This document shows, piece by piece, positions 1-29,712 of a stretch of DNA of 37,661 bases. The translations under genes and the position numbers were made by a program. The notes under the pieces are model-generated. The model was not told the DNA's origin. It did not search any database and was given only the letters and a program-made list of their open reading frames with translations. Every line of letters starts with the position of its first letter. Position 1 is the stretch's first letter. The DNA is from a virus, in IMG/VR virus record IMGVR_UViG_3300042544_002146, positions 1 to 37,661 of that record; one strand, 5' to 3'.

Positions 1-1
1 A

Positions 2-1471
2 GAACTTGACCTCTACTTTAACATTTCCTTTTTTGTCAGCTTTACCTTCCCGTTCTATAAAATAATCAACTCCGTTTACCTCAAAGTTAAACTTACATCG
101 GAAACTCATTTTCTGAGTATTCAATACGTGTACAGCTTTATATCCCTTGCTAAATTTATCAAATACACAAAATGCTAACGCATCCATAATACTCGATTTA
201 CCACTAGCATTTGGTGCAAATAATCCGATAGTACCCTTGAGTTTGGTAAAATCAATATAATTGCCTTCTCCGTAACTAAACATATTATCAAATTCAAATA
301 CTTTTGGTTTCCAGCGAATATTCTTCGGAGCTTTATCCTTTGGTATTTCTAGATTGATAATTTTATTTAACTCTTTAACCTTATAAATAAGTTCTGCGGA
401 AACATTCTTAGATAGAAGATTTTCTTCTATTAGTTTGTTCTGATAATCAACGTCGAAAATGTTATGAATCTCAAATATCTGACCCGATTTCAACATTAAA
501 TCATGTGATGGTTCATCGATTCGATTAAATGTGGTTTCGATAATTTCACACTTATTCTTTACTTCATTGATAATCTCTTTGACCTGAGATGGAATAGATT
601 CACAACAAAGTGTACGAATGCGAACTTTCTTTGGAATGTCTGTAATATCAGTGATTAGTTTACCTTTATTAATTTCGATTGTATAAAAGCCATAATCATT
701 TTTCAACTCATAATGTTTATAGACTTTTCGTTTCAGATCCCACATCAAGAATCCGTGTCCTTTAAGTTCTTCGCCGTGATTCTGTTGAATCATAGAACCC
801 GCATATACGATTATAGGCTTACTTTCACTTTCATCGTATTCTTGTAGAATCTGATGTTTATGGATATCGCCTAACATTGCAATGTGATGTCCATCAAACA
901 ATTCATTTGTAATAGCACGATTACTAACGGTGTATCCAACATCTGTAACAGCATTATTAACCGGACCATGGAATAATGCAATATGATGGTCTGTTTCTAC
1001 TCGATGTTTAGATAGAATGTCTTTATAACGGATATACTTGTCTGGATCGTCAAATACACTAAAATTGTTAAATAGTATATTTTGATAACGATAGACTTCA
1101 GTATTTTTTAGATAATAAAGATTTGGATGATTGAGTGCTTGTACGATTGGAGTTAAACAGTCCAATCTTGCCTTGTTTGCTAACGTTGCATCATGATTAC
1201 CCGCCGTTAAAATCACGGGCACACGATCAGCACAATTTTTTAGAAAGTCGCCCCCGATTTTAACACACTCAGGACTTAAATCTGATTTATTATGAAAAAT
1301 GTCGCCTGCAATAACCAAGATTGCATTTAGAGTTTTAGCTTTATCCAAAGCAGTATAAAACTTTTCAAATACAGATGTATATTCATCATGTCGTTTTGTC
1401 AAACGAATGTGAATATCCGCAACATGCATCACACAATTGATTTTATCGTCGGTATTTTTTAATACGATCAT
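2..1471 (-). CDS. SbcD-SbcC (gp47-gp46) fusion recombination nuclease/ATPase, partial
   Basis: The frame is open from ATG 1471 to the window edge (490 codons, no stop), so the C-terminus lies outside. Residues 1-340 are an SbcD/Mre11/gp47-type metallophosphatase: D19-x-H21 in ADIHIR, GDIFHNK at 56-62, GNHD at 91-94, FHGPV, and GDIHKH near 198. After a linker (about 345-385) the same frame enters the SbcC/Rad50/gp46 ATPase N-terminus, with FSYGEGNYIDF followed by the Walker A APNASGKSS (Lys425) and a Rad50-like strand ending in EREG. In T4 these are separate genes 47 and 46 acting together in end resection and recombination-dependent replication; here they are covalently joined. The ATG overlaps the stop of the primase gene (ATGA). 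I read every codon for stops and found none. The coiled coil and Walker B are off the window. Confidence 0.9.
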   Translation of the reverse strand, partial: MIVLKNTDDKINCVMHVADIHIRLTKRHDEYTSVFEKFYTALDKAKTLNAILVIAGDIFHNKSDLSPECVKIGGDFLKNCADRVPVILTAGNHDATLANKARLDCLTPIVQALNHPNLYYLKNTEVYRYQNILFNNFSVFDDPDKYIRYKDILSKHRVETDHHIALFHGPVNNAVTDVGYTVSNRAITNELFDGHHIAMLGDIHKHQILQEYDESESKPIIVYAGSMIQQNHGEELKGHGFLMWDLKRKVYKHYELKNDYGFYTIEINKGKLITDITDIPKKVRIRTLCCESIPSQVKEIINEVKNKCEIIETTFNRIDEPSHDLMLKSGQIFEIHNIFDVDYQNKLIEENLLSKNVSAELIYKVKELNKIINLEIPKDKAPKNIRWKPKVFEFDNMFSYGEGNYIDFTKLKGTIGLFAPNASGKSSIMDALAFCVFDKFSKGYKAVHVLNTQKMSFRCKFNFEVNGVDYFIEREGKADKKGNVKVEVKF

Positions 1472-2382
1472 AGTTTATTTATTAATTTATATCTGTATAA
1501 TACACTTTCATCCATTCTAACACCACAGCTGATGGTTTGCCAAGTTTTTATATGTCCTATTTCATTCGGATCTTTTCCGTCTAATAAAATTAGACGTGAT
1601 TCAATATCATTAGAAATTAAAAAATCACATATTTTCAAACTGGATCCTAAAGCATCGTTATCCAATAAAACATTTACATATGGCGGTCTATATTCTAGCA
1701 ATTTCATTTTAAGTTTTCTAGACATAGTCTTTCCGAATAAAGGTACCGTATTGTACTTTACCGAAAGCGCGTCAAATGGTCCCTCTACGATTGTAATAGG
1801 TTTTGTAAAATCTGTAAATAGTTCAAATCCTATGATGTCTTTGCTTCCATCACATAATCTATACTTTAGATACCCATTGTAAAAGTCTCTACCACAATAG
1901 AAATTTAAATTTCCATCTTTATCATATGACGGAATAATTACTCTATTTGCGAATGTGCCTTCTGTACAATAACCAATATTATAACGAACAATTTCATGCA
2001 CATTTAGATTTCTTTTTAAACAATAGTTAAGTGCGTGTTTATAACCAACGTCGTTTGAAGATTTGTATAGTGGTTTAAATTCACTTGGTAAAGTTAGTGT
2101 CTTTTTCTCGTCAGAGACATAACTTGTTCTGACTTTATTTTTACATAAGATCTGATAGTACTCAGCCGAAGCTTTTAATTTTTTAAGAAGTGAAGAAAAA
2201 CTTTTACCACTGAAGCCACATACCCAACATTGGTAATATCCAGTGATAGTGTTGATATTTAATTTACGTTTGTGATGTTGACAGTTTGTGCAAAACACAA
2301 GTATTTCAGTGCCACCTTTTTGAATATGTGGTTTTTGCTTAAACAACTTTGAAAGTGTTTCTATAACCGAACTATTAATCAT
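1468..2382 (-). CDS. DNA primase (zinc-ribbon + Toprim)
   Basis: A 304-aa DnaG/gp61-type primase that would make RNA primers for lagging-strand synthesis. It has an N-terminal zinc ribbon (C31-x2-C34 and C52-x2-C55) for template recognition. A Toprim core follows, with the acidic motif IVEGPFDALS (Glu200) and the DND motif (Asp241, Asp243) that bind catalytic metal. The length fits small phage primases that lack a fused helicase. The stop overlaps the start of the SbcDC fusion by four bases, so the two are likely translated together, and RuvC lies just upstream. Family is confident; whether it is closer to gp61 or to DnaG is not resolved. Confidence 0.88.
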   Translation of the reverse strand: MINSSVIETLSKLFKQKPHIQKGGTEILVFCTNCQHHKRKLNINTITGYYQCWVCGFSGKSFSSLLKKLKASAEYYQILCKNKVRTSYVSDEKKTLTLPSEFKPLYKSSNDVGYKHALNYCLKRNLNVHEIVRYNIGYCTEGTFANRVIIPSYDKDGNLNFYCGRDFYNGYLKYRLCDGSKDIIGFELFTDFTKPITIVEGPFDALSVKYNTVPLFGKTMSRKLKMKLLEYRPPYVNVLLDNDALGSSLKICDFLISNDIESRLILLDGKDPNEIGHIKTWQTISCGVRMDESVLYRYKLINKL

Positions 2383-2424
2383 CTCATTCTAGAGTAACAG
2401 ATGAATTAAATTAAATCAAGACAT

Positions 2425-2934
2425 TTATTTTTTATATAAACTAGCTACCACAGCGTCGTACATATCACCATTACGTTCGTCCCAATTTCCTTTTTTATTT
2501 TGTGTAGTAAACTTTATAACATCAGGCATAAGCAATTCAAGTTCTTGTCTAACAAAATCTTTTGATTTGATTCCTTTTATTCTACATTTGCCAAACAACT
2601 GTTTTCGTATCGTATTAACCGATAATAAATTAACTTTCTTTTTAAAATGTTCTTCTATAATATACGCAAAAACAGCATTGTGTCTAGCTAATGTGATAAT
2701 AACTTGTTGACTAGTAAAACCTCCAGCGAATCCGCTTAATGCGGCTTCAAGATTAATTTCATCAAAATTTTTAATTTCTTTAATAGTTTCAAGATGGGAT
2801 ATAATGTGAAATGTTTTTTCTTTTGTAGTTTCTAATTTTTTTGTGTCTACAAAACCAGCAGAAAGAATCTTTCCGTTTTCACAGAAAGACCAACCAGTTG
2901 TAGATGTAGATGAATCCAATCCTAATATAACCAT
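2425..2934 (-). CDS. RuvC-like Holliday junction resolvase
   Basis: A 169-aa RNase H-fold protein with the RuvC layout. The first strand GLDSSTSTTGW carries Asp7, NLEAAL carries Glu63, and the C-terminal helix GDMYDAVVASL carries Asp157 and Asp160, giving the four acidic residues that bind two metal ions. RuvC-type enzymes cut four-way junctions; in phages they resolve branched replicating DNA before packaging, the role endonuclease VII (gp49) has in T4. Its place beside primase and SbcDC supports that role. The length matches bacterial RuvC (about 170 aa). Confidence 0.85.
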   Translation of the reverse strand: MVILGLDSSTSTTGWSFCENGKILSAGFVDTKKLETTKEKTFHIISHLETIKEIKNFDEINLEAALSGFAGGFTSQQVIITLARHNAVFAYIIEEHFKKKVNLLSVNTIRKQLFGKCRIKGIKSKDFVRQELELLMPDVIKFTTQNKKGNWDERNGDMYDAVVASLYKK

Positions 2935-2946
2935 TTAGAATATATA

Positions 2947-3426
2947 TTAACGGCGGAATGAACCGTTAGTATATTTGTTACTATTAAAACCTTTAACGAA
3001 TCGTGAAAGTTCTAAAGATCTCTGATCTCCTACATCTTTAAATTGACTTGCACCTAATGGGGTTTGTAATCTAAACCCAGGATCTTTAGTATATAATGCA
3101 TCTTGCAAAGAAGCCTGACCATTCCAGTTAGTGGAAATTTTATTAACACCTGTAGTTAATACTGGACCATTTGAGGTATTATCACTGTACTTCAAATATT
3201 TTTCATTGAAATTTTCTTTGGGTTTATTAGGATATGGACCAGCTACTTGAAAACCAGGATTAATTGTTGACAATGTAGATTGAATACTGCCATTTCCAGC
3301 GTCTAACATTGTATTAGACGTAGATCGATATGCATCAAAAGCACCTCCGGCTTTTTGTCCGGATTGATATCTACCAACCAATCCCGTTTTTAGGGATTCA
3401 CGATTAATTTTTGAGTCTGTTGCCAT
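2947..3426 (-). CDS. hypothetical protein with an internal duplicated motif
   Basis: A 159-aa polar, Gly/Asn/Ser-rich protein that I do not recognise. Two similar segments occur: NPGFQVAGPYP near 55-66 and DPGFRLQTPLG near 114-125, each preceded by a Gln-containing stretch, suggesting an internal duplication. There is no membrane segment or signal peptide. It lies between the recombination block and the virion genes and is preceded by a T4-late-like TATAAATA, so a minor virion protein is plausible but unproven. Confidence 0.6.
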   Translation of the reverse strand: MATDSKINRESLKTGLVGRYQSGQKAGGAFDAYRSTSNTMLDAGNGSIQSTLSTINPGFQVAGPYPNKPKENFNEKYLKYSDNTSNGPVLTTGVNKISTNWNGQASLQDALYTKDPGFRLQTPLGASQFKDVGDQRSLELSRFVKGFNSNKYTNGSFRR

Positions 3427-3434
3427 ACGAGTCT

Positions 3435-3442
3435 ATTTATAT
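3435..3442 (-). promoter_or_regulatory. T4-late-like TATAAATA box
   Basis: TATAAATA reads on the minus strand, ending eight bases before the ATG of the 159-aa gene. It matches the T4 late promoter -10 consensus, and the phage encodes a gp55-like factor. Exact matches are expected by chance several times in such AT-rich DNA, and the box is unusually close to the start codon. Confidence 0.3.
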
Positions 3443-3453
3443 AATAAATATAA

Positions 3454-6084
3454 TTAGGTATCCCATTTAATCACAATATTAATAGGAATTTCACCGGTAT
3501 TTTTAATTGGTTGCGCTAATTTAGCTATAGCAACCAATTCGGCACCACTATATAATCCAACTGTTGTAATGTACGGTGCTAGATATGATCCAGTGGGATC
3601 CAATGAACTACTATAGTTATATTCAAAGAATTCTTGTTTTACTAATTTTTTGTTTGATTTTCCTGTTTTTTCATTCAAGAACGAAATCATATCATCGTAA
3701 TTATTACGGCGTGATCTTGGATTCAAATAATTCTGATAATTGTTTATTGTAAAATCTTGAATAAAATACTTCCATATGGCCGATCCATCTTGATAATTAG
3801 CTGTGCCATCACCATTAACATCAAAATTTAAAGAACTACATTTAGATTTTAACTCATTTGTCAATCTATTTGATTCGTAGTCATAATAAGATGAACTATA
3901 AAAATTAAATATAGACTCATCTATATCACCTGATACAAAATTATCCCACCATTTCTCAGAATTATTAACTGTAATTCGGGTATTAATATATCTTAAGATT
4001 ATATCTAAATTATCAAAATTAAAAATATCTGTATTAATCACTCCATAATCAAACATAGATGACGTAATTGCGGTTGGATTAGTAGATACATTAAATTCTC
4101 CTGGCTCTATAGTACAAATATATTGTTTTTCATGCAATGTTATTTGACTGTTATATTTCATGTATAAGTACGTGTTATTAAAATCCGTTGGATCAAGCGT
4201 TAGATTATTTAACACACTGCCTGTATTATTAATTATTAACTTATTAGTGTTATAAAATATATTACCGACATTAAAATTTGTTTGTAAATCAGACATATTA
4301 TAAATGTATGATTTTCCAAATATTTTACTAGCGGCATATGCGTATTCACCTTGTTCATCAGCAAACACTATCAAATTATCGCATGCGCCTGAAAAAGCAC
4401 CTGAAATGGGTCCGCCATTACAACTTAGACAATCTTCCATCTGTAGATACACAAAACTAGATGTTATAATACAATCTTCACTTTGATATGAAGATGTTAA
4501 TAAATAAGTTAAATCACTTCTACTACCAGATTCAGTTATTAACGGAGCTGATAAATAAAAGTCTTCATTTAGTGGAATAGGAGCTCCTATTACTAAATTT
4601 GTATCTGATAAAGATACTGAATATCCATAAGCTGTAAATGGTTTGCCAATTTCTTTTCTTTTAGATATAGGATCCGTAGTCATCTGCATTACTACAGATC
4701 CTGTCACTGCGTAAAGTAACGTTTGTCCGCAATACGTAGATTCTCCAAAATCATACTGATTGAAAGTTAAATCATAATAATTTATCGAACTGGAAATGAA
4801 TAATGAACTAAATGGAAAATATGGTTTTGGAGAACCAATTAATATTTTTTTATCAAAAGTAGATACAGAATATCCAAATAAATTGTCTTTAAATGTTACC
4901 TCGTCTCCATACAATTTTGTTATAAGTTGAAATCCGCAGTTTTTATCATCTGGACACTGTTGATTGTTATATACATAAACAGATCCACGCTGTCTTAAAG
5001 TTTTTGATCCAGAGTACTCCCAATAAACCAAATCATTTGGGGCACCTACAGCTAGAGTTGTATCATACAATGATACCGCATATCCGTATCTAGTATTAAT
5101 TTGACTTCCACTTGGAATTAATTCAAAGTTCGTATTTTGAATAGTATAATATTGCGAACTTGTATTTTGAGATAATACCTGACTTAATTTCCAATTATTT
5201 AAATTTAAAGATCCCGAAAATAAATAGACATTGGATTGAGATAGTTGATTGCTTCCAACCACCAATGTCCCTTCATTTTTTTTATCCAGAGAAATTGAAT
5301 ACCCAAACCCATATTGATGTGGATATTCAATAACACTACACGTTAATATTTGTGGAGAAGAATAGGTACAATCAGCATCTGTATATTTGTATATATATAC
5401 AGCGCCTCGACCGTTGTTGTAGTTAGGTGATCCAACTGCTAAGTAGTTATTGGTAATGGATACAGAACTACCAAATTTCTTTGAAATGGATCCTGTGATA
5501 GAACAAAATGGAATATCACTTATATTATATTCATCTACGGATATAGAGTTTCCCGCAGAACTAGGAATAATACCTTTTGTATTATCAAACGTATAGTTTG
5601 GATTAATTTTGAATATATCTACACAGGCGAAACTACTTGTGTGTCCTAGATAATAACTTGATGATACTGATGTGTCTCCCACTGCCAAAAAATATGTAGA
5701 TAAATCAATGGCAGATCCATAATTGGATTGATTTACTTTTAAATTGTTCGATTCTACAATGATAAAATCACAATTTGATCCTGGAGAATCATTTATAGAA
5801 CCACTTTCAATTATCAGAGAAGCTGTTAATGCAGCACTGGAACTTTGTTCTGTGTAGTAAGTCGCTAAATTTCCATTTTCTGGAAAAATTGTTTTCTTTA
5901 ATATTTTAGAAAGCGAGTAATTCGATTTAAAACTGTCTTTTTTAATCAAAAAAACCTGACCAACTTTACTAAATCCTTCACATGATGTGTATGTGTCAGA
6001 CGGTGGATTTCCTATAGCGATAAGATCACCATTGGTCACTACCACACTACCATAATTCTGATTATATATATTTTCCAAATTCAT
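3454..6084 (-). CDS. FG-GAP (integrin-like) beta-propeller virion protein
   Basis: An 876-aa protein whose first ~500 residues hold seven FG-GAP-type blades of the pattern [FY]G-x-[SA]-[VI]-x4-9-L-[AV]-[VI]-G: YGSVVVTNGDLIAIG, YGSAIDLSTYFLAVG, FGSSVSITNNYLAVG, FGYSISLDKKN, YGYAVSLYDTTLAVG, FGYSVSTFDKKILIG and YGYSVSLSDTNLVIG. Seven blades would close an integrin-alpha-like propeller. Near residue 756 is a calcium-loop-like DVNGDGTANYQD (dockerin/EF-hand type). The last ~35 residues (YITTVGLY ... LVAIAKLAQP) match the C-terminus of the 369-aa protein encoded at 6875-7984, so the two likely share an attachment or assembly domain. A virion role, possibly host or glycan binding, is inferred from position among tail genes. 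Confidence 0.78.
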   Translation of the reverse strand: MNLENIYNQNYGSVVVTNGDLIAIGNPPSDTYTSCEGFSKVGQVFLIKKDSFKSNYSLSKILKKTIFPENGNLATYYTEQSSSAALTASLIIESGSINDSPGSNCDFIIVESNNLKVNQSNYGSAIDLSTYFLAVGDTSVSSSYYLGHTSSFACVDIFKINPNYTFDNTKGIIPSSAGNSISVDEYNISDIPFCSITGSISKKFGSSVSITNNYLAVGSPNYNNGRGAVYIYKYTDADCTYSSPQILTCSVIEYPHQYGFGYSISLDKKNEGTLVVGSNQLSQSNVYLFSGSLNLNNWKLSQVLSQNTSSQYYTIQNTNFELIPSGSQINTRYGYAVSLYDTTLAVGAPNDLVYWEYSGSKTLRQRGSVYVYNNQQCPDDKNCGFQLITKLYGDEVTFKDNLFGYSVSTFDKKILIGSPKPYFPFSSLFISSSINYYDLTFNQYDFGESTYCGQTLLYAVTGSVVMQMTTDPISKRKEIGKPFTAYGYSVSLSDTNLVIGAPIPLNEDFYLSAPLITESGSRSDLTYLLTSSYQSEDCIITSSFVYLQMEDCLSCNGGPISGAFSGACDNLIVFADEQGEYAYAASKIFGKSYIYNMSDLQTNFNVGNIFYNTNKLIINNTGSVLNNLTLDPTDFNNTYLYMKYNSQITLHEKQYICTIEPGEFNVSTNPTAITSSMFDYGVINTDIFNFDNLDIILRYINTRITVNNSEKWWDNFVSGDIDESIFNFYSSSYYDYESNRLTNELKSKCSSLNFDVNGDGTANYQDGSAIWKYFIQDFTINNYQNYLNPRSRRNNYDDMISFLNEKTGKSNKKLVKQEFFEYNYSSSLDPTGSYLAPYITTVGLYSGAELVAIAKLAQPIKNTGEIPINIVIKWDT

Positions 6085-6095
6085 ACTCTATATAC

Positions 6096-6839
6096 TTATG
6101 TAGATATCGACCCATAATACAAATATTGTCCTAAACCTGTTATTCCATAATTAACTACGCTATTAGTATCAGTTGTATAAACTTCAAAATCACTAATAAA
6201 ATATGATCCGGACAAATATAAATTGTTTATACCATCGTCTAAAATATCACCAACTATATCACCTGTTTGATTATTAATTACTACACTAAAAGGACTAATT
6301 TTGTCACCGCTCTGTGTTACATTTAATGTATAACTTATAAATTTATCATCCAAATTTAACTTAGCTTTAGATGTATCATATCCATCAAATCCAAAAATAT
6401 TATATGAGTTATTATAATTATTATAATACATATTTTTTATTGTATTATAAACCTGTCCTTGATAAGTGCCATCTAAATTGATGGGATTAGTTTCACCATT
6501 ATAATGAATATTATCGACTGGATAAAATACTGATCCAGCTGGAATCTTTAACCCAAGTTGAAAATGCGGATTATTTGGATCTTCTATCGGCGAACAAGCC
6601 AAGAAACCATTAGAATTAATTAATGATGACGTACAACTATCATTGTTAACCGTAGCAAATGATCCTGTATCTAAATAATTAAAATTATAATCACATTCGG
6701 CTATGGGAATCACCAATGGGAAATTATACGTACCATCACTTAGTAGTAGCAAATCAGAAAAGATGTTATTAGCGACTTTAGTCTTTGCTACCGAAAATGT
6801 AGTAACTTGTATGTCTTGATTTTTGAGAAATTTAATCAT
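6096..6839 (-). CDS. hypothetical protein, likely virion structural
   Basis: A 247-aa protein, rich in Asn, Tyr and Asp, with no membrane segments and no family I recognise. The N-terminus (MIKFLKNQDIQVTTFSV) looks like a short folded lead-in before a beta-rich body. It sits between two proteins that share a C-terminal domain, with 11 and 35 bases to its neighbours, so it probably belongs to the same tail assembly. The start codon is supported by the gap upstream, which holds an AT-rich TATTTATA six bases from ATG. Confidence 0.6.
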   Translation of the reverse strand: MIKFLKNQDIQVTTFSVAKTKVANNIFSDLLLLSDGTYNFPLVIPIAECDYNFNYLDTGSFATVNNDSCTSSLINSNGFLACSPIEDPNNPHFQLGLKIPAGSVFYPVDNIHYNGETNPINLDGTYQGQVYNTIKNMYYNNYNNSYNIFGFDGYDTSKAKLNLDDKFISYTLNVTQSGDKISPFSVVINNQTGDIVGDILDDGINNLYLSGSYFISDFEVYTTDTNSVVNYGITGLGQYLYYGSIST

Positions 6840-6874
6840 CCCAATATAAATAGGAAGATTTAAAAGTATTTAGA

Positions 6875-7984
6875 TTAAAAATCAATACGACACTTAATCA
6901 ACAACTCATTATCAAATGATTTTTGTGTAGGTCTACTTAGTTTACCTACAGCTAATAGTTCGTTATTAGAATCATATAATCCAATTGTGGTAATATAAGT
7001 ACGAGGATTACTAATAAGTGCTGGATATATAATAGTGCCTTTAGTTTGACCGTCAGTACCATCTGATACAAATGTTGGGTTGTTACTGTAATTGAATTCT
7101 TTATTTTTTACTCTGATGAAGTAATTGGTAGATGGTACAAATTCTGATTTGCGAACCGCCATATTCTTATTTGATTTTTTTATACTCAAATAGAATTTAC
7201 GTATCCAATTTCTCCAATAACTCTTCCAGTTAACTGAATATTGATTCGTTGTTCTAGCACTAGTAATTTCCGGAGGATTTCCAGTAATACCAACTCTCGC
7301 ATCTAACTTTAATGCGTTCAATATAACTACTCCATTTGTAGGATAAAATAAACCGATTCCGTCATAAACACCGGATACGGTACCACCTTTAGTGTATGGA
7401 GTTGGAACTCCGTTAATAATAGATCCTGAAATCAAGTTATAAACATTTTGTTGTGTATTAATAACTTGGGAATCGTCGATATACGAGAATTGACCTAAAG
7501 AGCCAGTGAAATTTAATTGAATTTGGCCTGGATCAATTTGATCTTGGAATTTATCAGCTACATAGTTTAGTACAAAGATTGCGGAACTGTCGGTTGGAGA
7601 ATCAACACTACCAGACGCAAAGCTAAAGAATGTATCGCCTGGTTGTAAAAGTGTGTTTTTATATTGTGTATATATAATTTTGGTTTCATTCGTATACACG
7701 TTTGCTATTGATTGACCTGGATAATTAAAATAACTACTGCCTGAATTATAATAATCTCCATAAGCAACTGCAAAATATTGATCGCCTCCACTATATATAT
7801 CGATGTAATATTGTGCATTTCTTACGTCAAATGGACTAGATCCTGTCATGACGTTTGCTTGGGCGGATGAAGTTACAAATGATGATTGTGCTACTGTCAA
7901 ACTACCAGTACCAAACATGCCCGATGATACCTGGTTAATTCTTCCTGCTACTACGTCGTCTGGAGTAAATGGTGTGAATATCAT
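6875..7984 (-). CDS. virion structural protein sharing C-terminal domain with FG-GAP protein
   Basis: A 369-aa protein with Gly/Ser/Tyr-rich, beta-type sequence and no membrane segment. Its C-terminal ~45 residues contain YITTIGLYDSNNELLAVGKLSRP, nearly the same as the end of the FG-GAP protein encoded at 3454-6084. This C-terminal signature is familiar to me from tail-region proteins of marine T4-like phages, but I cannot name a T4 counterpart. It is 7 bases from the next structural gene upstream. Specific function unknown. Confidence 0.68.
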   Translation of the reverse strand: MIFTPFTPDDVVAGRINQVSSGMFGTGSLTVAQSSFVTSSAQANVMTGSSPFDVRNAQYYIDIYSGGDQYFAVAYGDYYNSGSSYFNYPGQSIANVYTNETKIIYTQYKNTLLQPGDTFFSFASGSVDSPTDSSAIFVLNYVADKFQDQIDPGQIQLNFTGSLGQFSYIDDSQVINTQQNVYNLISGSIINGVPTPYTKGGTVSGVYDGIGLFYPTNGVVILNALKLDARVGITGNPPEITSARTTNQYSVNWKSYWRNWIRKFYLSIKKSNKNMAVRKSEFVPSTNYFIRVKNKEFNYSNNPTFVSDGTDGQTKGTIIYPALISNPRTYITTIGLYDSNNELLAVGKLSRPTQKSFDNELLIKCRIDF

Positions 7985-7990
7985 ATATTA

Positions 7991-8632
7991 TTAATTTGTG
8001 GTAGGAACACTAACAGTTACATTGATTGAAGTACTTCCACCACTTTCATTGCCGATGATAGTAATATTAGTTGTTGTTGTCTTAGACAAAGAACTATTTG
8101 GAATAAATCTAAACTTATTACCTATAACGACTTGTGACGATTGTGATACTAAATCGCCTGTGAATGATGGAATCGTCGCTGATGTAGAATTCAAATTATT
8201 GGTTTCAGTGACCACTAAAGTGCCAACATTTTTATTAGTCAAAATTGCTGTATATCCCAATGTCACGTTATAAACTGGACTTGTACTCGGAATAACGTCA
8301 ATTGCGGCTGAATAAGTACGTGGTACAGAAATCAATGGCGGTGCAATACTAATAGTTGGTACCGATGTAACGCCATCATTCAAAGTGACCAACTTATATT
8401 TCATTGTCTGTGATTCATCCGTAATGGGTTCCATAATTGGAGTGTTACGAATAGCTATATCGTAATAAGCACTGCCCAGTGGGTGAGTTGGATTAAATTG
8501 AGTATAATCAATTTCGTCATCAGCTAAAGCGAAAGCTGTAATGTTCAATCCACCTGTTTTTGCTAATACTTCTCGACCTTTTTTTGTCAGTATCGCGTTA
8601 ACAGTCAGAACGTTGTTATTAAGGTATGCCAT
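7991..8632 (-). CDS. virion structural protein, hypothetical
   Basis: A 213-aa protein. The N-terminal half (MAYLNNNVLTVNAILTKKG, ALADDEIDYTQFNP, IRNTPIMEPITDE) resembles a conserved domain seen in tail regions of large marine myoviruses. The C-terminal half is Thr/Ser/Val-rich with an Ig-like beta-strand pattern ending in VTVSVPTTN. No catalytic motif is visible. It lies in the run of virion genes, 7 bases from the next one. Role inferred from context. Confidence 0.62.
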   Translation of the reverse strand: MAYLNNNVLTVNAILTKKGREVLAKTGGLNITAFALADDEIDYTQFNPTHPLGSAYYDIAIRNTPIMEPITDESQTMKYKLVTLNDGVTSVPTISIAPPLISVPRTYSAAIDVIPSTSPVYNVTLGYTAILTNKNVGTLVVTETNNLNSTSATIPSFTGDLVSQSSQVVIGNKFRFIPNSSLSKTTTTNITIIGNESGGSTSINVTVSVPTTN

Positions 8633-8678
8633 ATGTAAATAATTATCAAGTGTTTTTAGTTTTTAATCAAAAATTATA

Positions 8679-11600
8679 TTATAAATTCATAATGTACATG
8701 TTCATACTAGCACTTGCACATGTGGAGCATGTTAGTGGTTGTTGTATAAACAGACTATTTGGCGAGTCAATTGAACCAGTTAGTATCCCATATTTAGGGA
8801 AATTATCACTTTCTATATCAACCGCCAAGTATCCAGGTATCGTTATAATAGGAGAAGATCCATTTGGTAATCCTTTTCGATTCACAGTTGTAGTAAAATC
8901 ATTTTTACCTTTTGTATAAGTGTAGTATGTCAATTTACCAGACGATAAAGTTTTTACTCCATTTTTTATGGTATAATATGATCCAGAAATAGCTTGACAT
9001 TTTAATCTACTACCGACACGGACAAATTTACTTAAATGTCTTTGTGAATAACCACTATTCATTTCTCCATAGTAAATATTCTTGAGAGATTTACTGCCTG
9101 TAATTTGATTGTTTAAATTACCAGACCCAGATCCAATCGTTTGTATCGTGTAGTAACTTGACGTAAATGTTACAATAGATCCTGTATTATTTTGAGACTG
9201 ATAATAATCATTCTCAGAATAATTTATTGTATTTCGTACATTATATCCATTATTATCTACAAATATATATTTTCCATATTTAGCAAATATAAAATCTCTG
9301 TCATCGACTCTATCTTTAATTTCAAATCTTGAAAAATTATATGTATCGTGATCCGTATCAATTCCATTTACAGATTCAATATTTATTACGGTGTTGCTTG
9401 ATGAATTAACTGTATCTATCAATGAAGATAAGAATGTTGGTTTAATTTCATAAGACATTAAACTTGATGTTGTATTTGGGTCTATCGGTAAAAATACAGC
9501 ATCTTTATAATTAAATTTTACACGTTCGAATATTGAAGGTTCTAATAATAAACCGGTCTTTAAAGTAGCACGACTTGGTGTTAATTTTTTAACAAAATCA
9601 AATATAGAAAAATCAATGTAAAATTTATAAGTACTATAATATTCTTGTGGATATATATATTTCTTATTTGCAGCTGCAAATTCGGTCTGTCTTAGTTTTA
9701 ATTCAGGATAATTTCTCGATGTCAAATATTTAGGATCACCAATAATATCAGATATACCTTCTTTTCCTAAAAAGTCTTCTATATTTTCATTTAAGTATCT
9801 ATATGGAGAAATATAATATCCAACTAAATTAGAATCGCTACCAATAATATCATTTGTGTATGTAGAATATTCATATGGCACTAAATTAGAACTTACAATT
9901 TGAGAAATTTTATTAATATTAGCGTTAGATCTGTAATTTGGGCCAAATCTATTTGAGTTTGTAGACTGTTTGACATTAAATTTCTCAAATTGATATGGGA
10001 AAATATCGGCTGATATTGAATCGCAATATGGTGCTCCTCTTTGTATAGTATTTTGATTAAAATTATAAGCGTAAAATTTACTATTATATCTGTTATTCTG
10101 ATTAGGAACACTAGCTGGATTACCATATAAATTTACAGGAGTGTCAAAACTCCATAAATAATACATATTTTCATATACCAACGACTTTTCCGTGATAGAA
10201 ATTGAATTTAAGTTATAAGAGTGTTCTTGGAAATCGGCATCACTTAATGCATATTTTTGTACTTTAATTTTATCAATATTTCCATAGAACTGCATTGACG
10301 ATGAAAAGTTTCCTACATAATAACTTCCAGACGAGAAATATTGATTTTGATCATACAATATTGTTTTGGTTTTTTTATCTGTAAAATTCAATAAACTTCC
10401 GTAATATTGATTAACACTTAAAGTATATGTATGTGGTACATATTTATCCGCTGCGGATGAAGTTAACGATTGAGTTTGATTATATAAATTTGATATAACA
10501 GGTAAAGAATCAAATCTAATATTTTCATTTGGTTGCTTTCTCAACATTAGTGTATAAAAATCGCCATTAAAATAAGGCATTTCGATGCTTTCTACACTAG
10601 ACGTGATTATTGTAGAACCAATAGGACACATTTCAAAGACTAACTTTGCTGATTCTCTTTGTTTTGTCTTATACAAATAAATTTGCCAATCTAATTTATT
10701 AGATCTTGTTTTTTTAATCAACGGAATCTTATCTTTATAATTGTATTTATTCCATTCATTTGATCGGAAAGACAGTTCTACAGTTGAAACTCCTGTAAAT
10801 TCTTCGATTATTGATCTAGTTAATTGAGTTGGTGGATACGTACTTCCACTAGTGTATTGTTGTGTTACAAAATATTTATATTCGCTTCCCGTAAAATTGA
10901 ATTTTACAAATTGATTGTCTTCATATTTAGTAGCGTAAATTATATCGTCAAACTCATAATATGATTGTCTGTTTATCAACACATTTGGGCTACTATATTC
11001 GACTACATTTATTAAATCAGAGGATATTCCGAAAATTGAACGAATCAAATTAAATGATGTGGATGTACCTTTAGTTTTGTATATATAATTTAAATTATTT
11101 GTTATTCTGTTGAATATAGACTTAGCATAATCAAAATAAGACGATGATAAACTTCCGGTCATCTGTGTGTTATTAAACAATAATTGAGTTACATCACTTT
11201 TATTAAATTTAAAATTAGTTACATCCCAGTTAAAATTATTTAAAAGTTCTTCTATATAATTTTTTGGATAACTATTGTTATCATCCCAATTAATAGGATA
11301 TGATTTTGGAAACTTCTTAATAAATACTAAAATGTTATCAAAGAAATGACCAGTCATAGCAGTGAACTTTATATAATCAGCGTTTGATTCATCCGTTTTA
11401 ATATATTCAGGCAATTGATAAAATAGCGAATTGTAATTACTTTTGTCAAAACTTATACCATCTTCTATTTTTTGATCTATACTGGATGTAGAATAAAATA
11501 AATAAGATTCGTATTCGTCAAAACTATCCAATAATAATATCTGTTCATCGATAATTCTGGTTATATCATTGGAATATGATGCCGATATTGAAATATTAGA

Positions 11601-24771: not shown

Positions 24772-25254
24772 TTACTCAATCTTTATTTTTTTGGTTTCTG
24801 GAATTGTAGGTTTGATCTTTGACAATGTAACCCTTAACAACCCATTTTCAAATTTTGCGGATGGATTTCTGCGATCAATTTGATCACCTAATGTAAAACT
24901 TCGTTTGAAATTGCTATGTTTTAATTCTCTACGAATATACTTTCCTGTAAATTCCCTATCATCAATCTTTTTAATCTTTTGACCACTAATAGTAAGAACA
25001 TTTTCTTGTACATCAACAGAAACATCTTCTTTAGAGAGACCGGGAATCTCTGCTAGAATTTCCACTCGATCATTATAATCAACAACGTCTACACGTGGAT
25101 AACTTTGTTTTTCAAAGAAACCAACCCCCAATTCTTTATTTAATTCTGGGAAATGTGCCGCGAATACTTCATCGAATACACGGTCAAATGGCGTTAAAAA
25201 CTCATCACGATCAACGTGACGTAATGCAAACGGACTATATTTAATTACTGACAT
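24772..25254 (-). CDS. hsp20: small heat shock protein Hsp20
   Basis: A 160-aa alpha-crystallin-type chaperone. The N-terminal arm (SPFALRHVDRDEFLTPFDRVFDEVF) is followed by the crystallin core at ~50-150 (PRVDVVDYNDRVEILAEIPGL, KEDVSVDVQENVLTISG, FKRSFTLGDQI, AKFENGLLRVTLSKIKP), and a C-terminal I-x-I (KIKIE) for oligomer contacts. It would hold unfolding proteins, ATP-independently. Hsp20 genes are known from T4-like cyanophages near structural genes. It has its own sigma-70 promoter and an AAAGG ribosome-binding sequence nine bases from ATG, clearer than for most neighbours. Confidence 0.95.
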   Translation of the reverse strand: MSVIKYSPFALRHVDRDEFLTPFDRVFDEVFAAHFPELNKELGVGFFEKQSYPRVDVVDYNDRVEILAEIPGLSKEDVSVDVQENVLTISGQKIKKIDDREFTGKYIRRELKHSNFKRSFTLGDQIDRRNPSAKFENGLLRVTLSKIKPTIPETKKIKIE

Positions 25255-28995: not shown

Positions 28996-29712
28996 TTAAT
29001 GCAGAGTTTTAAGTTTTTTTAATACAAATTTAACTAACCCACTTCTTACAATATCTTCTTCATTAAATCTAAATACATACACTCCATTATTTCTACTTTC
29101 TTCATCGTCAAACAGATTCATAATTGGCACAAATCCACTTTTGCCATTGATGTCACTTTGATCCGGATCTCCACAAATGAATAATTTACTAAATTCGCCG
29201 ACACGTGTGATTAATGTAATAAGTTCTTTTTTAGTCATATTCTGAGCTTCGTCTGCAACAATACATTTGGCATTCCAACTTAAACCGCGCAAAAAATTAA
29301 TTGGAAATCCATGAATTCGTTCTTCTCTTTTCAACTTTTCAATGTCACTACGAGGAACCAATTCTTCTAACTTATCTATCAACGGTTGAATATATGGACT
29401 CATTTTTTCATCCATTTCACCAGGCAAAAATCCCAATTTACTATCACTACTTTCAACTATACTACGTACATACACAATCTCACTTACTCGTTTTTGATTT
29501 AATAGATTCAAACCAGCCAAAACACTAGTATACGTTTTGGATGTGCCAGCTGGACCAGCAATAAAGACACATTTTGTATTTTTATTTTGTAAAAGTTCTA
29601 ATAACTCAATTTGCTTAGGATTTAATTCTCGATTATCAAGTTTTATCACATCTCTAATTTTTGCGTTTTGGTGAACTTTTGGACTTGTGTCTTTCTTGGT
29701 GTTTTTGTTCAT
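28996..29712 (-). CDS. phoH: PhoH-like ATPase
   Basis: A 238-aa PhoH-family ATPase. The Walker A is GPAGTSKT (53-60). The conserved VYVRSIVESSDSKLGFLPGE follows (about 81-99). The Walker B is CIVADEAQNMT (Asp154, Glu155) and there is a sensor-like LFICGDPDQSD (near 173-183). PhoH proteins are common in marine phages and are related to superfamily 1 helicases; their role in infection is unsettled, despite frequent linkage to phosphate stress or RNA metabolism. The gene overlaps the 117-aa gene by 59 bases. Confidence 0.94.
   Translation of the reverse strand: MNKNTKKDTSPKVHQNAKIRDVIKLDNRELNPKQIELLELLQNKNTKCVFIAGPAGTSKTYTSVLAGLNLLNQKRVSEIVYVRSIVESSDSKLGFLPGEMDEKMSPYIQPLIDKLEELVPRSDIEKLKREERIHGFPINFLRGLSWNAKCIVADEAQNMTKKELITLITRVGEFSKLFICGDPDQSDINGKSGFVPIMNLFDDEESRNNGVYVFRFNEEDIVRSGLVKFVLKKLKTLH

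Follow-up and report, generated by a model that had tools for sequence, protein, structure and literature searches.

The left end of the window, meaning the whole stretch of 37,661 bases from a viral record analysed here, raises the question of whether a nuclease of the gp47/SbcD type and an ATPase of the gp46/SbcC type are encoded there as one protein, and, if so, how such a fusion arose and what it does. The open reading frame at positions 2–1471, on the minus strand like all parts of this gene described below, starts with the ATG at 1471–1469 and comprises 490 codons without a stop before the contig end truncates it. Pfam detected Metallophos (PF00149) at residues 14–204 (E = 1.5e-10) and the Rad50/SbcC-type AAA_23 at residues 395–484 (E = 3.1e-8), both above their curated cut-offs, and the PHROG matches comprised SbcD-like and SbcC-like subunits, confirming that an SbcD/Mre11 nuclease continues in frame into an SbcC/Rad50 ATPase. 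A sequence-only reading had given the coordinates, the frame and both domains correctly, and was equally right about the N-terminal nuclease, the intact Walker A lysine Lys425 (G424-K425-S426 are present) and a junction free of stops and frameshifts. The window covers only 490 of approximately 1061 residues, and the remainder was read from the near-identical contig L002 (IMG/VR 3300027798_000197), which shares 96.7% DNA identity with window positions 1–9477. In this contig the frame is completed to its stop (L002:8001–11186), yielding a single 1061-aa protein in which a capping domain and a putative helix-loop-helix of the Mre11 type are followed by a linker of 12 residues, Walker A, a coiled coil with a CxxC zinc hook, the signature motif and Walker B; the coiled coil, Walker B and stop anticipated beyond position 1 were thus recovered.

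The same architecture was widespread among related viral sequences. The nuclease and the N- and C-terminal lobes of the ATPase occurred in one ORF in 161 of the 170 fetched loci; these 161 formed 56 clusters at 82% amino-acid identity and represent approximately 144 distinct records, since the two viral scans share 18 contigs by record name, 17 of them within the 161. Annotated isolates with one fused gene, namely Microcystis phage Mel-JY01 and Tenacibaculum phages pT24 and PTm1, displayed this domain order as well. Among the nine non-intact loci, L055, L088 and L159 were contig ends or partial hits, L063 and L132 were one contig with a break within the coiled coil, L083 was split by an inserted ORF, L169 was the divergent fused pT24, partly found by the profile, and L170 and L171 were controls from known phages in which the genes are truly split. 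One further contig (L051/L097) had an in-frame stop near residue 942, and the frame break of L063 lies near residue 770 of an otherwise conserved fused gene; both could be either real pseudogenes or assembly errors. Such breaks show that reading frames can be disturbed in these assemblies, which lends some substance to the idea that two genes were joined in the window by an assembly or sequencing error. However, the uninterrupted frame recurs across the distinct records, the 56 clusters and the three isolates, and this conservation across samples excludes the removal of a stop by error, leaving that explanation a negligible probability. In most comparisons within the family, dN was mostly 0.02–0.06 and dS approximately 1 or more, with similar values in nuclease, junction and ATPase lobes and a looser coiled coil, indicating from substitution patterns that both halves and the junction are under strong purifying selection. 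No DNA-level match to the window was found among known phages, and plasmid relatives were restricted to weak partial ATPase matches in Acinetobacter. Cellular relatives in genome contigs amounted to four MAG contigs, which are probably binned viral sequence. One contig assigned to a Candidatus Nitrosopelagicus bin (L085, CALBOT010000005.1) carries a fused gene of the family and is probably a mis-binned marine virus.

The organization of the junction was examined with an alignment of 55 diverse fused members and an AlphaFold2 model computed from the same alignment (pLDDT 82.6, pTM 0.46), the low pTM of which leaves the positions of the domains relative to one another uncertain. Along the chain, the model comprises the nuclease core, a capping domain extending to approximately residue 317, two helices (residues 341–354 and 359–373), 12 irregular residues, the first ATPase strand at residue 386 and the ATPase with its hook. 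Judged by their position, the two helices (residues 341–373; 353–451) probably correspond to the Rad50-binding helix-loop-helix of Mre11. They are followed by the 12-residue inter-domain linker (residues 374–385; 317–352), delimited by the model and the alignment and low in dN, the invariant W387 just after it, and the N-terminal lobe of the ATPase (residues 386–490; 2–316), which is recognized by AAA_23 and continues off the window. For the Thermotoga maritima complex, approximately 9–12 residues have been estimated to span the 28 Å gap between the C-terminus of Mre11 and the N-terminus of Rad50 (PMC3175470), and the 12-residue linker agrees with this estimate; the model also retains the capping domain and the putative helix-loop-helix, as in fusions of the R555 type. 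A separate SbcC chain might also be produced from an internal start beside the full-length protein, making the fusion only partly obligatory, and M397 is a candidate for such a start, being in frame and conserved in the 55 sequences. Nevertheless, no other in-frame start exists between codons 340 and 428 of the window, and initiation at M397 would drop the first conserved ATPase strand (residues 386–395, including F392 and F394) plus N396; a separate SbcC chain is therefore very unlikely, given that its sole start lies inside the first conserved ATPase segment. The missing Shine-Dalgarno sequence was discarded as an argument against internal initiation, as 23 of the 25 window genes are without one and the phage hardly uses such sites. 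Shine-Dalgarno-like motifs precede two of the 25 genes, A/T-rich sequence precedes the starts and the GC content is 32%, and the scarcity of these motifs may reflect a host that makes little use of them.

In the ATPase half, a coiled coil divides an ABC ATPase head that contains Walker A, the signature motif, Walker B and an H-loop. Walker A (194–217) reads APNASGKS, with G424, K425 and S426 invariant in the 55 fused sequences, and the signature motif reads SGMEKF, of which G973-x-E975 (SG-x-E) is retained in the alignment along with the Walker B residues D1002-E1003 and H1035. The zinc hook is formed by C736 and C739, also invariant in the 55 sequences and located in the model at a helix break at the apex of the coiled coil. 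Structural matches in the PDB covered mainly residues 386–1061, with the nuclease part in fewer of them, and residues 387–1061 of the model matched the E. coli SbcC head with a Z score of 31.6. In L048 (L048:8001–11186), the segment from Walker B to the C-terminus (IDEGWGTLDQSN...) departs from that of its close relatives (IDEGFGCADSDH...) and looks more like the form seen in Mel-JY01, a pattern that suggests recombination within the fusion gene.

The nuclease half comprises a Mre11/SbcD phosphodiesterase core (residues 1–250; 722–1471), delimited by PF00149, the AlphaFold2 model and VIA-align, and a capping domain (residues ~251–317; 521–721) supported by modelled strands and a helix at residues 260–317 and by matches to SbcD capping domains. 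VIA-align of the nuclease and capping domains gave Z scores of 24–26 to S. aureus and E. coli SbcD, with residues 11–317 of the model matching S. aureus SbcD at 25.8. Calcineurin-like phosphoesterase motifs I–V are all present, including motif I D19xH21 (1409–1417), motif II GDxxH at residues 56–60 (1292–1306), motif III GNHD at residues 91–94 (1190–1201) and motif V GDIH at residues 201–204 (860–871), and D19, H21, D57, N92, H93, D94, H168 and H204 are all found in the window protein, with G91-N92-H93-D94, H168 and G201-D202-I203-H204 kept in the 55-member alignment. The main metal-binding motifs claimed in the sequence-only reading are not fully canonical, motifs II and V being variant. At motif II, His60 stands where split SbcD mostly has Asp, GDxxH being found in 154 of 158 fused sequences versus 3 of 79 split SbcD; at motif V, the position of the canonical His is taken by Asp (Asp202 in the window) in 162 of 162 fused sequences, versus His in 78 and Asp in one of the 79 split SbcD of the main set. 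In terms of Pyrococcus Mre11 (Pfu), H60 and D202 of the window and its family amount to GDxxH and Asp for His206. The single exception among the split proteins is a T5-type D12, and four further T5-type D12 also have Asp, so motif V Asp was ruled out as a mark unique to fusions.

With these departures from canonical Mre11, the protein may have a changed nuclease activity or a different choice of metal. Carried further, the universal Asp for a metal-ligand His and the GDxxH in place of GDxxD could signify a degenerate or repurposed nuclease, the protein using its ATPase, coiled coil and hook mainly to bridge or tether the ends of DNA. This is improbable, as practically every fused sequence retains D19, H21, D57, N92, H93, H168 and H204, Asp can itself coordinate metal well, GDLH also occurs in T5-type D12, and the nuclease core is under purifying selection. 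The Asp-for-His variant, here systematic across the fused set and noted earlier for Mimivirus R555 in one paper found (PMC3175470), is the part of the finding most worth a bench test. Insertions were observed in the nuclease part of two relatives. In a 73%-identical relative on a 303-kb contig (L098:3998–8161), an in-frame insertion of approximately 326 residues, in which Pfam recognizes intein splicing and LAGLIDADG endonuclease domains, lies right after GNHD (motif III) of the active site, and in the 484-kb huge phage LR756508 (L083:5677–6591), an ORF that combines a TnsA-like endonuclease domain with zinc-finger-like cysteines breaks up the nuclease part, with no Rfam match above noise to a group I or II intron at this insertion.

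The fusion itself is not a new kind of protein, contrary to what the sequence-only reading implied. Mre11-Rad50 fusions of the same order were described in Mimivirus (R555), Bacillus phage 0305phi8-36, plasmids of C. kluyveri and Deferribacter, other bacteria and several eukaryotes (Yoshida, Claverie, Ogata 2011, PMC3175470). The study reported an abundance of R555 homologues in viral metagenomes from aquatic sources, frequently sharing scaffolds with primases and other phage genes, and inferred a viral, in part phage, origin for them (PMC3175470). This kind of fusion has thus been known since 2011, aquatic viruses included, and the window adds a tailed-phage member. The long contigs support the 2011 inference of a viral, and in many cases phage, origin for the abundant aquatic R555 homologues, as they reveal a tailed-phage family with a fixed primase neighbour. 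R555 and the giant-virus fusions share with the window family a single chain with Mre11 N-terminal to Rad50, and R555 shares both unusual residues, with GDxxD ending in His instead of Asp and with Asp242 at the position of Pfu His206, as published (PMC3175470); R555 has 1351 aa as compared with approximately 1061 aa for the phage protein, and the window virus carries contractile-tail genes. The best full-length viral structural matches (Foldseek, BFVD) were likewise giant-virus fusions, with Tupanvirus at 26% identity over 1327 columns and the Tenacibaculum phages lower, at 16%. Among phages, the Mel-JY01 protein WWT39521, annotated as 'AAA domain containing protein', is fused like that of the window, has 1066 aa and is 42% identical to the window part. 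The Tenacibaculum phages pT24 and PTm1 and the huge phage LR756501 are fused in the same order with a GDIH motif V, whereas their proteins are longer and share 16% (pT24 and PTm1) and 26% (LR756501) identity with the window family. In T4, the same two enzymatic parts occur in a myovirus, gp47 (SbcD) upstream of gp46 (SbcC), but as separate genes with 46.1 and 46.2 between them and GHxH at motif V, and the T4 definition as two polypeptides does not fit the window. T5 D12/D13 resembles the fused family in motif V Asp (5/5) and, in some cases, an SGLE-like signature, yet its genes are separate and overlapping.

Regarding the origin of the fusion, trees of each half placed the 15 fused sequences all on one side of a branch, with supports of 93/95 and 90/86 with eight split controls and of 94/92 and 87/86 with 12. 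The T5-type SbcD half grouped with the fused clade (97/93) and the T5-type SbcC half did not; with a split sample this small (8–12) and halves that disagree on the T5 genes, the deep placement of the fused sequences is unsure and the set may or may not stem from a single fusion event, several events having been concluded previously (PMC3175470). In Xanthomonas phage XaC1, the end of sbcD is followed after nine bases by the start of sbcC in the same frame, a plausible precursor state from which losing a single stop codon could create a fusion. It is possible, though doubtful, that the phage and giant-virus fusions constitute one old viral single-chain Mre11-Rad50 lineage that is marked by the Asp-for-His metal ligand, differs from cellular Mre11 in nuclease behaviour (metal use and the balance of endo- and exonuclease activity) and has been carried between phages and eukaryotic viruses.

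For the function, the gene very probably encodes a single-chain SbcD-SbcC complex of R555 type that serves an aquatic contractile-tailed phage in end-processing for recombination, and by analogy its most likely role would be that of a covalent counterpart of T4 gp46/gp47, the end-processing nuclease of phage recombination. Two chains would pair through their ATPase heads and nuclease domains into an M2R2 assembly, a linker predicted to be just long enough for the native gap would tie each nuclease to an ATPase head, and ATP-driven closing and opening of the heads may gate the access of the nuclease to DNA ends. Such processing would leave 3' single-stranded ends that feed recombination-dependent replication and repair, as for T4 gp46/gp47, and the enzyme may, on the same model, also break down host DNA. 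Canonical Mre11-Rad50 complexes are already 2:2 and thus reach this ratio with separate subunits, which weakens the earlier proposal that it newly fixes 1:1 stoichiometry; obligatory co-synthesis and association, together with joint inheritance and transfer, are likelier benefits. The complete Mel-JY01 genome contains just the fused copy of each domain, and the fusion must therefore be sufficient for the whole task in that phage. The family also provides a large and diverse set of natural single-chain Mre11-Rad50 proteins, which may prove more tractable for purification and structure determination than complexes encoded by two genes.

The gene neighbourhood was largely shared as well. A DNA primase gene (1468–2382, minus strand; phrog_47, E = 9e-34) lies directly upstream and overlaps the start of the fusion gene, and a primase adjoins the fusion in 141 of 146 testable loci. 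Also on the minus strand is a RuvC-like Holliday junction resolvase gene (2425–2934; phrog_827/phrog_159), with a RuvC-like gene occurring within 3.5 kb of the fusion in 102 of 138 loci. Mel-JY01 has a primase-like gene one small ORF upstream of its fusion, the intervening 57-codon ORF being absent from the window, but no RuvC match near the fusion, while the pT24 and LR756501 loci, unlike the window, showed neither a primase nor a RuvC match. The window further encodes a baseplate wedge protein, as in contractile-tailed phages. In its tail-gene region, genes for an HSP20 small heat-shock protein (24772–25254) and a PhoH-like ATPase (28996–29712) were observed, as was an 876-aa FG-GAP repeat protein (3454–6084). 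Upstream of the fusion, LR756508 contains matches to this protein too, and Mel-JY01 weak ones.
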